From Cadophora sp. MPI-SDFR-AT-0126 (Eukaryota > Ascomycota > Leotiomycetes > Helotiales > Ploettnerulaceae): a stretch of DNA of 64,000 nucleotides. The position numbers and the translations under genes were made by a program. A model generated the notes under the pieces. That model was not told the origin of the DNA. It ran no database searches and was given only the letters and a program-made list of their open reading frames with translations. The stretch spans positions 806,001-870,000 of the forward strand of contig JAGMVK010000004.1 of NCBI GenBank assembly GCA_020747065.1, written 5' to 3'. Of the stretch, positions 53,694 to 58,060 are shown piece by piece (position 1 is the first letter of the stretch; the number at the start of each line of letters is the position of its first letter).

Positions 53694-56600
53694 CTAAAAA
53701 GAGATGGTACGCAAGTCTACGGATTCAAGCAAGACACTTCCACCACTAGTCGTCAAAGCAAGCCCATCTGAGGATATGTCCGGGAAGATCAGATCCGAGA
53801 TGACCACCTCCCCCTTCCCACCAAAGACTTCAATCGAAGACTCATCCACCAGCACACGTAGCTGAACCTTCCCATTCGCATCGGCCTGGAAGCTAGCGGT
53901 ATGGACTCCGCCGGCGGCTGGATCATAGCCAATATTGCCACTGGCAGTACGATCGACCGACAACTGACCACTGGACTGGACATACCTGATGACGGTCTGC
54001 TGCGATCCCCCCTTTCGAACTGCGAGAGACAAGGTTGATCCTGCTGTGGGAACAAAAGTCATGCGAATGTCGTATGATCGGGAGCGGATATCGTTGAGCA
54101 ATGTCTGTCCCGGCGCAAGGTTTTGGCTCGTGAGATTGGTGGCTGGAACGCTGGCTCCGTCGAGCTCGCTGACGGGAAGCTGGACGAAGCGTATCTTCCC
54201 GTTGACCTGCTTGAGTTGAAGCGTGCGTGGGAAGGATAGAATCCCCTTATAAGTGTTTGTTGGCGGGTTGGCTCCGTAACTGTTCATCACAGAGGCTAGA
54301 ATCCGGCGGCCATCTGCGGCCTCTACATTCTCCCAGCTCAAAGCACCATCGAAGTCGCGTCCATAGTCGAGCCAGAAATTTGACGTGTCGACGGTATCGG
54401 CTGTAAAGACTGTGCCATCGAAGGACCCTGTGAGGGCAAAGACACCGTTACCGCCAGCTGGGGAACCAGTTGCTGGAGTTACGATCAGTACCCACTTCTT
54501 CTGCGTGGTGCCATCGATGGTGAGCTCGAAGAAATCGGGGACCTCCCAGCCATTGACACCGCCTGGAATCCCGGGAACGTTACCAGTTCCGAAGTCGCTC
54601 TTCCACGTCCACGCTTTGGCATCAGAAGAAGTCCAGAACGTCAGCTTGTTTTGTCCTCCATGTGCAAGGATCATGACCCATCTGCTTGTTGGAGTGTGAA
54701 AGAAAACCTTGGGATCTCGAGTCTCGAGGCCGTTGGTTATGTCGTGTGGTGACTCTTGAGCTTGGGAGATGATAGGACTGCCTGGATATTTGATCCAAGT
54801 CTCACCCTGGTCTAGGCTGTAGGCCAGTCGTTGATCCTGCACTCCGCTGGAGGGGAAGTAGCCAGTGTAGAATGCCAGGTACGGTGCATTGGCAGAAGTT
54901 CCCAGTCCCGAAAGGTTCGAAACATCGAACCAAGATGTCCCCGTAAATGCCTGGATGCCATTCGCGCTCGAGATCGCCACTGGTTTGTGATTCCAGTACA
55001 CGAGATCATTGCTAGTTGCATGCCCCCAACTCAGGTTCCCCCAGAAATTCCCAGTCGGGTTGTGCTGATAGAAGAGATGCCACGTGGATCCGATTTTGAT
55101 CAGTCCGTTAGGCTCATTCATCCAATTTTCAGATGGGACGAAGTGATAAGCCGGGCGGAAGTCATATGCACCCGTGGGCGTCGCACGAGAGGTTGTTGAA
55201 GACCTTGTTGTGGATACCAGAGTAGTGGCGACGGAAGAAGTGATAGAGCTTGAAAGTGACGTGACGACCGAAGTACGGCTCGAGGAAGTGGTAACAACGC
55301 TTATTGTAGTGCTCCTTGTACTGACACTGCTGCTGGTGCTGCTGGTTGACTTCGAATTGACAGTTGAACTTGACCCGGACGATGAGTCCCAGGCCGACCC
55401 AAGGACTTCTGCACTGATCGAAACTCCGTTCGTACTCCCTCCTGTCGAGAATAAGCGAGTGTCAACACCGTTATCGCGAGGAAATATTTGAGCTGATAAG
55501 GTGACCTCTCCCTCGCCACCAAATACTTCGATAGATGACCAATCAAGAAGAATACGCAGAGTGACCTTGCCGTTACTGGCTGCCCCCAGAGGTGCGTAAT
55601 AAGTGTTGGAAAAAGTCCCATCGAAGCCGACGTCGCCTGATTTGGTGCGGTCGACGAATAGTCTCTTGGTGCTAAAATCGTACCCAACACGTGTCTGTTG
55701 TGTCAAATCGGAAGTAGCTCTCAAAATAATACCAAACTGTGACGAGGATGATGAGGCGACTCTGTCCGAGAAGCTCAAGGTGATATCGAGCGTCTTATTA
55801 GTCAACGGTAAGATTTGATTGCCCTCAACCACTGTGTCAAAGGTATTTGTGTATGTCGAGTTCTGCAAGCTGAGGAAGTCAGCAACAGGCTTCTGGATCA
55901 ATGTCGGCCTGCCACCGATCGTCTTGAGTGAGAGTTGTCGAGGAATGGAGAATATGCTACGCCATGGAGAGGTAGGAATTGCGGCTGCATATTGCCAATT
56001 GTTCATCCATGCAATGCTGATTCGATTGGCGATTTCAAGACCATTGAATGGTGCTGCAGCATAGAAGTCTGGACCGTAGTCCATCCAACTGGTGCCATAT
56101 GGTTCATTCGATGAATCAGAGAAGGTGATCTCATCAACCAGGATATGACCCCAACCACCAGTGCTCGCATCGACGATCTCAATAACAGCAGATTGCCCAA
56201 TAAAGCTTGCAACATCCCAGCTTGTTGGTACGAGCTTCTCTACATCCGCTCCGGTAGCAGTGCGAACGACTTGACCCTGAATCTTCAAGTTGACACATTG
56301 CACTCCAGGAGCATTTCCTCCACCGATGAGGAAATTGATCTTCTTCTGGGATACAACGAATGACGGTGAAGTAAGTGTCCCGGTTGTGGCATCCCCATCG
56401 ATGAAAGTATTGACATAATTTCCACTGTAGCCAGTGACGGTGTTTTGACCATTCAAGGTGCCTTGTGCAGGCGATTTTCCAACAAGACCTCCCGTAGCAG
56501 TCCATCCCCTCTCAGCATATGTGCCAACGCCATCAAAGTTATAGACGCCTGCCGGCGAATTCGTAACAGTAGGAGCAGAGGAACCTGTGAAGGTTATTTG

Positions 56601-58060
56601 ATCGATGAGAATATGGCCCCAGCCTCCCGTTGACTGGTCGACAATTTCCAGGACAGCATTTTGACCAATAAATTCAGTCACATCCCAACTTTGAGGCAGA
56701 AGCTTTTCGTCATTCAAGCCTGTAGCCGTGCGCACAGGTTGGGTTTGACCTTGAATTTTCAAGTTGATACACTCTGTACCCGGTGCATTTCCCCCTCCAA
56801 TAAGGAAGTTGATGTTAGGACGGGTGATCTGAAAGGTTGGTGACGTGAGTGTACCGGTTGTGGTGTCAACGTTAATGAATGTATTGACGAGTCGATTACC
56901 GGCGTATCCTGTCACTGCCTGTTGCCCACCAAGAGTTCCCTGAGCTGGTGCGGCCCCTATCAAGCCTCCAGTAGCAGTCCAGCCGAGGGATGCAAACTCC
57001 CCAGTTCCCTCAAAGTCTTGAAAAGTGATATTACCGGTGGCAGTCGGCGTTGGTGTAGGACTAGATGACGATGCGGAAGGCCTTGTTGATGTTGTTGGGA
57101 ATGAAGATGGAGCTTGTGTCTCTGCAACAAAGGCTGTACCGTTGAAGTTACCCACGATATACTGGGTGCCAGAACCGACAACACCTGGAGGCCCTCCAGG
57201 ATTGAGTCCAATTTGTGCTACCCACTTTGTATTCGACTCATCGCCATCAAGAGGCAGCGGGAAGATGCTCGGACATTCCCAAACACCTCCAACAGCGTTC
57301 AGTGGACCGAACTCGCTCACATAGGTCCATGTCTTGAGGTTCGAGGATGTGTAGATGAGCAACTTGTGGAGTTGAGCCAGAGAGATCACAGATATCCACT
57401 TCTGAGAGGCATCATGCCAGAACACGAAAGGGTCTCGAAAATCTTTCCACTGGTCAGAGTATGGTGCTGGAGGGGCCAAGATGACTGGATTGGCGGCATC
57501 ATAAGTCGTCCATGTCATTCCTTCGTCTGAGCTGTAAGCAATGGATTGTGCTTGCGTGCCACCATTGACTGTTTTGCCGCTGGGCAGTACGCTTGTTCCG
57601 GGATACTGAGAGAAAAAGGTTGTCAGAAAAGATACATCAGAGAATGCTCTACCACACTCACATAAGAGGTATACATTGCAATGAACGGGACTTTTCCGCC
57701 ACTTCCAAATCCGCTCGTATTTTGGGTGTCGACCACAGTAGAGCCAGAGAAGAACATCTCTGTGATCTCGCCTGGATAACCCCGAGCTTGAAGTGCAATA
57801 GGCTGTTGCTTCCAGTGTGTTAGGTCATTACTCGTGGCATGACCCCAGGACATGGCTCCCCAGGTATTGCCTCCCGGATTATACTGGAAGTATAGATGGT
57901 ATGTTCCATTGTAGTACACCAGTCCATTGGGATCATTCATCCAGTTATTGGCTGGACTGAAGTGATATTGGGGCCGATAAAGCTCATTGTAGGTTTGAGC
58001 GATTGATGTCTGGATGAGTGTAAGGCAGAGAACAAAAGTATGAGAAAAGTTGAGCATCAT
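53694..58060 (-). CDS. Two-headed GH32 fructanase with a doubled inserted domain
   Basis: Two exons: 58060-57662 and 57605-53694 (56-nt intron, phase 0), giving 1,436 residues. Signal peptide about 1-21. Module 1 shows the GH32 set WMNDPNG (Asp43), FSGS (105-108), RDP (Asp191) and WECP (Glu243), as in exo-acting fructanases. At about 322-631 it is interrupted by two similar domains of about 150 residues (each with TATGGL, FLIGGGNAPG, RTATG, SWDV and GGWGHI). The propeller then resumes at SWMDYGPDF, followed by its C-terminal sandwich. After a Ser/Thr linker (about 873-944), module 2 has WMNEPNG (Glu964), RDP (Asp1097) and WEVP (Glu1154). This pattern, with Glu for the usual Asp and EV for EC, is the one I know from Aspergillus endo-inulinases. 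The enzyme should hydrolyse inulin- or levan-type fructans outside the cell. Confidence 0.93.
56114..57041 (-). repeat. Tandem copies of a domain inserted in GH32 module 1
   Basis: Two protein-level repeats: residues about 322-474 (57041-56583) and 485-631 (56552-56112). They share TATGGL, AQGTL, TGTLTSP, INFLIGGGNAPG, RTATG, SWDV, EIVD and GGWGHIL. The second copy misses a few residues. The shape suggests a beta-sandwich, probably fructan-binding. Confidence 0.8.

Follow-up and report, generated by a model that had tools for sequence, protein, structure and literature searches.

A fungal gene predicted to carry exo-inulinase-type and endo-inulinase-type GH32 modules in one chain

The question raised by this locus was whether one fungal gene could encode both the enzyme that trims the ends of inulin chains and the enzyme that cuts within them. 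The degradation of inulin is generally attributed to exo- and endo-inulinases that are distinct proteins acting together. The gene studied here lies in a 64,000-nucleotide stretch of the Cadophora sp. MPI-SDFR-AT-0126 genome (contig JAGMVK010000004.1, positions 806,001 to 870,000; referred to as the window), and its predicted product contains two modules of glycoside hydrolase family 32 (GH32). By both sequence and tree, module 1 is of the exo-inulinase type and module 2 of the endo-inulinase type, each being closest to known enzymes of that kind. Based on the analyses below, we consider it very likely, at roughly 85%, that the single chain would have both exo and endo action. The fusion is real, conserved in many fungi and apparently uncharacterised.

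The fusion gene runs from 58060 to 53694 on the minus strand, the span given in an earlier note on this DNA that had been made from the sequence letters. Its ATG starts at 58060, its last codon ends at 53697 and the stop codon occupies 53696-53694. Exon 1 (58060-57662) and exon 2 (57605-53694) are separated by the sole intron (GTGAGT...CAG; Table 1), and the spliced product of 1436 residues has a single frame through both GH32 modules. A 1274-aa open reading frame (ORF) at the locus begins with a Met codon that lies within exon 2.

Analyses of the two modules supported the earlier proposals that each has its own catalytic triad and that one is exo-type and the other endo-type. The motifs WxN(D/E)PNG, RDP and E(C/V)P, which we take to be the catalytic motifs of GH32 enzymes, are present in both, as WMNDPNG at residue 40, RDP at 190 and WECP at 242 in module 1, and as WMNEPNG at 961, RDP at 1096 and WEVP at 1153 in module 2. 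The GH32 domains PF00251 and PF08244 scored 510 and 213 bits over the whole protein (curated cut-offs 22.1 and 21.9), with both modules matched; Pfam matched GH32N to three segments of the chain and GH32C to two. NCBIfam searches of the protein returned just general GH32 matches, all under their cut-offs. The two cores were 39.6% identical to one another (190 of 480 aligned residues). The top PDB sequence match of module 1 was the Aspergillus awamori exo-inulinase 1y4w (667 bits, the next match having 369), which aligned as two pieces, and that of module 2 was the A. ficuum INU2 endo-inulinase (3rwk/3sc7; 738 bits, the next having 333), which aligned as one. Sequence scores of this size are not chance matches.

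The two pieces of the 1y4w alignment flank inserted material that the earlier note had missed and that matters for the mechanism. Module 1 had been described as a complete GH32 unit; its propeller and sandwich are indeed present, but it is not a plain one, as the propeller is split by a short stretch rich in Ser/Thr, followed by a pair of repeats of ~150 residues, R1 and R2, which share 100 of 147 aligned residues. According to phmmer coordinates, repeats sit between the exo halves in 66/66 bacterial-type rows, 45/45 single fungal rows and 47/53 fused rows having repeats, the six remaining fused rows being those without the first exo half. R1 and R2 are probably CBM38 domains, a name given by the source databases to relatives (the fused orthologue P0003 and the single exo protein P0130). 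An internal sequence of the InuD exo-inulinase of Penicillium sp. TN-88 is reported to act as a non-catalytic region with affinity for inulin (cited in PMC7959777, 2021), and by analogy R1 and R2 may bind inulin.

To place the modules we used a quick tree of 97 modules, built without this genome's other GH32 genes. It held 54 exo rows, 40 endo rows and 3 of the 66 bacterial-type rows with repeats. The exo rows were drawn from the chains that have both start motifs (19 of 21, the window protein in; P0012 and P0049 out), from single exo proteins with a repeat (20 of 45) and from those without one (15 of 74); the endo side comprised the fused rows and, from the 120 proteins listed for module 2, a further 21. 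Exo and endo rows fell on separate branches, each with a Shimodaira-Hasegawa approximate likelihood ratio test (SH-aLRT) value of 100, which ruled out the placement of both modules in one activity clade, the outcome that the earlier note had named as telling against its own proposal. All 19 fused exo rows were in one 26-row branch (SH-aLRT 98) together with 7 single exo rows, and the fused endo rows were in a 31-row branch (SH-aLRT 83) together with 12 single endo rows. The tree program warned of long branches joining the endo rows and one bacterial row, so we used the tree only for the separation of exo from endo and for positions within either side.

We propose that the one gene would give rise to a single secreted inulinase built of modules. 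In this model, the repeats within the exo module would hold the enzyme on an inulin chain. The linker would be flexible and is probably O-glycosylated, and the endo module attached to it would cut the same or neighbouring chains internally and so create new ends, from which the exo module would trim fructose. Secretion, the activities of the modules, the binding of inulin by the repeats and any synergy are inferred.

Selection on the parts of the protein was estimated against L028 (NYXK01000007.1), an 86%-identical fused orthologue of 1434 residues whose 53-bp intron follows nucleotide 399 of the coding sequence (CDS), the same CDS position as in the window gene. The ratio of nonsynonymous to synonymous substitution rates (dN/dS) was 0.034 and 0.088 in the first and second parts of the exo module, 0.071 in the endo module, 0.111 in R1, 0.083 in R2 and 0.092 overall, and the linker was the fastest-evolving part (dN/dS 0.466, 61% identity); all these are Nei-Gojobori (NG86) estimates on one orthologue pair, with dS of 0.5-1.0. 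Both enzymes and both repeats look to be kept by purifying selection, the linker much less so. The genome behind L028 (G001) is a metagenome-assembled genome labelled Deltaproteobacteria, yet it holds this intron-bearing, fungal-type fused GH32 gene and Zn2Cys6 regulator matches, and it is likely mislabelled or contaminated.

The rate of the linker bears on a different account, in which one precursor is clipped in the linker outside the cell, the exo and endo parts then act as separate enzymes, and all that the fusion does is fix their ratio. From its length, the uncut chain would weigh about 150 kDa without glycans. Exposed Ser/Thr linkers can be clipped, this linker (49 Ser/Thr in 74 residues, close to the earlier estimate of about 70 in length) evolves fastest, and single exo and endo enzymes are both common. 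However, the linker contains no Lys-Arg or Arg-Arg site, and a freed endo module would presumably lose its anchor because the repeats are on module 1 only; we regard clipping as unlikely. Still less likely is that just one module is catalytically active, with the other acting as an additional binding domain. Although catalytically dead glycoside hydrolase domains exist elsewhere, the three motifs are intact in both modules here, all 21 chains with both start motifs (the window protein included) keep ECP, EVP and two RDP motifs, with two reading LECP for WECP, and dN/dS is low (0.03-0.09) in both modules.

That there are two genes here, module 2 having its own internal transcript, we find scarcely credible. 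Single endo-inulinase genes do occur in many fungi, some of them next to exo genes by locus number. Nevertheless, one frame passes through both modules, the same layout is found in other assemblies, and the fusion frame has no Met between residues 668 and 961 (Met 962 sits inside WMNEPNG) and hence no start for a second signal peptide. Unless an upstream exon has escaped notice, no secreted endo enzyme could therefore be made from an internal promoter. The earlier conclusion that this is one polypeptide and not two joined genes was upheld, at the level of sequence, by the single frame and by the lack of a Met from which an intact module 2 could begin. An assembly artefact or chance was likewise ruled out by the same layout in other assemblies.

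The earlier note knew of no described natural fusion of this kind and considered such a chain unusual, and it proposed a search for other double-GH32 chains. A search with residues 300-1436 matched 730 of the 7985 proteins scored, the best 120 of which were listed, so the counts here are lower bounds. All of the best 53 carried pieces of both modules: both start motifs were found in 20, the endo one only in 31 and neither in 2. The 31 proteins with only the endo motif all have the exo C-terminal half and 25 of them the exo N-terminal part, and the incomplete relatives therefore resemble gene calls that were truncated or left unspliced. The proteins ranked 54-120, of which 66 of 67 have repeats, contain one type of GH32 each and were used as the bacterial-type comparison. 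The best 53 include at least 14 named genera (Leptodontidium, Cadophora, Penicillium, Cephalotrichum, Aspergillus, Lipomyces, Talaromyces, Stachybotrys, Pseudogymnoascus, Coniochaeta, Rutstroemia, Dichotomopilus, Chaetomium and Botrytis). Double chains are thus not rare, with at least 20 relatives having both start motifs, and uniqueness was ruled out by the many public fungal genomes that carry the same fusion under other names; P0005, for example, is called 'related to inulinase', P0008 'extracellular endo-inulinase inu2' and P0003 'carbohydrate-binding module family 38 protein'. The remark on the literature held to the extent that no description of an exo-endo fusion, and no characterisation of any fused relative, was found in open-licence full texts (subscription papers and CAZy itself being outside the search). 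The term 'GH32-GH32' in the part of one paper that uses it denotes bacterial gene order and not a fusion (PMC9458734), and an excerpt on a Talaromyces genome lists one CBM38 gene and five GH32 genes without stating there whether they are joined (PMC11122143).

Besides the narrow base of the dN/dS estimates, several observations weigh against our interpretation of the fusion. The loop that follows YTSY/YTGY agrees with the exo and endo assignment in the fused chains, with 23 residues in 18/19 fused exo modules (one unmatched by the pattern) and 12 in 19/19 fused endo modules, but it is also short in two of three bacterial exo rows (10 and 12 residues, the third unmatched), so that loop length alone is no proof of exo versus endo type. 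No family was assigned to the repeat by Pfam, NCBIfam or PDB sequence searches: R1 had no match in the PDB, and PF22847, which is precomputed for some relatives including P0001, was not recovered (E 0.001 for P0001 and E 1 for the window protein). In addition, approximately unbiased (AU) tests rejected a strict clade of fused rows on both the exo side (19 of 54 rows, p 1e-5) and the endo side (19 of 40 rows, p 1.4e-4), and single-gene relatives are nested in the fused clades, showing that the fusion can be undone. A single origin thus needs later splits or losses. A fused endo clade admitting the single genes P0242 and P0255 was not rejected (AU p 0.498), this group having been named after inspection of the tree.

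Secondary loss or splitting is the simplest reading of the nested single genes, and truncated gene models are possible. Among the 7 single rows in the fused exo branch, P0121, P0122 and P0123 end in Ser/Thr tails resembling linker remnants, and P0124, P0127, P0128 and P0234 have no such tails. The single endo protein P0242 (A. fumigatus) has a Ser/Thr stretch at its start and P0255 (Xylogone) a weaker one. Most likely, the architecture arose once, when an InuD-type exo-inulinase that already had an inserted repeat was joined to an endo-inulinase, and was followed by passage between fungal classes and occasional re-splitting. Adjacent single exo and endo genes are a plausible starting point, as pairs with consecutive locus numbers are found in A. 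hancockii (BBP40_010623/4), Monosporascus (DL770_011884/5) and Truncatella (TruAng_008378/9). This origin is weakened by the A. hancockii endo protein having no standard start motif and by the Truncatella exo model being odd at its end.

Passage between fungi was considered with a careful tree of 24 fused proteins (the 19 of the module tree and P0026, P0040, P0041, P0047 and P0049). Lipomyces starkeyi (Saccharomycotina) was sister to Penicillium canescens (Eurotiomycetes) with support of 100/100 and 87% identity, and Cephalotrichum (Sordariomycetes) and four more Sordariomycete rows shared a 100/100 branch with seven Aspergillus rows. In AU tests, neither the 10 Eurotiomycete rows (p 9e-6) nor the 7 Sordariomycete rows (p 1e-48) were accepted as a single clade. 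For genera other than Lipomyces, Penicillium and Cephalotrichum, the fungal classes are those we presume. The fused-gene tree contradicts the species tree, which suggests transfer of the fused gene between fungi, and such transfer is the simplest reading. An old duplication with many losses is possible, but it fits poorly with 87% identity across subphyla. A single exo-inulinase with one repeat from Lipomyces doorenjongii (P0152) nests among Penicillium and Talaromyces rows, which suggests a further transfer into Lipomyces.

The 54-Mb assembly was searched exon by exon for other GH32 genes, and the following figures are among the matches listed. There are at least six further GH32 places, on contigs C38, C12, C33 (near 1.87 Mb), C37 (near 1.0 Mb) and C7, with a weaker one on C37 near 0.51 Mb. 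Their identity is at most 45% to the first part of the exo module (64% in a 33-residue piece) and 27-38% to the endo module (52% in a 33-residue piece), whereas known Aspergillus exo (P0208) and endo (P0318) enzymes are ~58-63% identical to the fusion's modules. No second close match to known inulinases was among the matches listed, and other GH32 genes could still act on fructans; we infer that inulin use in this fungus may rest on the fusion gene alone. The repeat family was seen once more, weakly (34%), on C38 (L002), in an ORF ahead of a GH32 propeller and not inside it; the GH32 gene there reads WINDPAG in place of WMNDPNG.

A Zn2Cys6 regulator gene lies upstream of the fusion gene on the same strand, its link to the enzyme being suggested by adjacency. 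Its closest paralogue (51%) is placed likewise beside the GH32 gene on C33 near 1.87 Mb, and the regulator-hydrolase pair was possibly duplicated. Overall, such a regulator is upstream on the same strand at 2 of 7 GH32 places in this genome; two GH32 genes were found in the L028 genome, and each has one in that position. Weaker regulator matches lie ~7 kb from the C37 GH32 gene and ~12 kb from the C38 one, and there was no regulator match near the C12, C7 or second C37 places. We take CGG-N8-CGG to be the spacing for AmyR/InuR. There is none between 58061 and 60249, and the window as a whole has 16 with 16.7 expected by chance, so InuR-type control gets no support. Together, these data give only a hint of a regulatory tie between the neighbour and the fusion gene. 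Judged by eye, a GH32 ORF on C37 (L116; G000 C37:999000-1008900) has sugar-transporter-like and regulator-like ORFs within 10 kb, possibly another sucrose or fructan cluster.

The features of the locus are collected in Table 1. The fusion protein is probably secreted, judging from its N-terminus. Elsewhere in the window, a long ORF at 45690-48245 (plus strand) has three WSC-domain matches and Ser/Thr-rich stretches.

Table 1. Features of the fusion gene and its neighbour; positions are those of the window.
Feature	Positions	Strand	Basis
Probable signal peptide, residues 1-21	57998..58060	-	Hydrophobic N-terminus, judged by eye
56-bp GT-AG intron after codon 133	57606..57661	-	Splicing; same CDS position in orthologue L028
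Exo-inulinase-type GH32, first propeller part, residues 26-295, all three catalytic motifs (span includes intron)	57120..57985	-	Pfam, PDB match, exo clade
Ser/Thr/Pro-rich segment ahead of inserted repeats, residues 296-323	57036..57119	-	Sequence
Inserted repeat R1, probably CBM38, residues 324-475	56580..57035	-	Sequence; CBM38 name from relatives' source names
Inserted repeat R2, probably CBM38, residues 485-632, 68% identical to R1	56109..56552	-	Sequence
Exo module, last blade and C-terminal beta-sandwich, residues 634-872	55389..56105	-	Pfam, PDB match
Ser/Thr linker, 74 residues (873-946), no Met, no Lys-Arg/Arg-Arg	55167..55388	-	Sequence; dN/dS 0.47
Endo-inulinase-type GH32, propeller and C-terminal sandwich, residues 947-1436	53697..55166	-	Pfam, PDB match, endo clade
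Neighbouring Zn2Cys6 / Fungal_trans regulator, 525 aa	60250..61827	-	Pfam; also adjacent in orthologue's contig

More tentatively, and with less than even confidence, we speculate that the gene is a complete inulin-digesting system, in which repeat-anchored endo and exo sites on the same chain would act as a short-range assembly line, and that, one gene being enough, it moves among fungal classes as a self-contained trait for using fructans, in this organism possibly as the only inulinase with its own regulator adjacent. Exo and endo modules in one chain fix a 1:1 ratio and permit a test of linkage versus mere mixing. A single-gene trait scattered across fungal classes is also a clean case for the movement of polysaccharide use between fungi. 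The protein is a possible tool for the production of fructose or oligosaccharides, as silencing one module should switch the product.

Each module resembles known stand-alone enzymes. Module 1 is like the InuD-type exo-inulinase of Penicillium sp. TN-88 (Q8J0G1, P0161, 702 aa), which has a GH32 exo core with the same kind of repeat at the same place and belongs to the exo clade; InuD differs in having one repeat instead of two and no endo module. The A. awamori exo-inulinase 1y4w is like module 1 by sequence, but has neither an inserted repeat nor a second module. Module 2 is like A. ficuum INU2 (3rwk, 3sc7) and the A. niger inulinase P0318 (63% identity), which we take to be InuA; these are endo-type GH32 enzymes with WMNEPNG and WEVP, and P0318 shares the clade of module 2, although both differ in standing alone. 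Bacterial GH32 proteins (Deinococcus hopiensis P0055 and Streptomyces P0065) have repeats at the same propeller position as the fusion, but with three or four repeat matches, some partial, and no second GH32 module matched. Four proteins from metagenome sources (P0054, P0340, P0349 and P0358) have GH32, in some cases endo-type by motif, with an extra PF13385 domain, a different domain addition. Fused counterparts from Leptodontidium (P0001), Cadophora (P0003), Penicillium canescens (P0004) and Lipomyces starkeyi (P0009) are respectively 88%, 90% (over 84% of the query), 71% and 70% identical to residues 300-1436; these are chains which have one or two repeats and linkers of varying length, and which share the module order, motifs and linker of the window protein.

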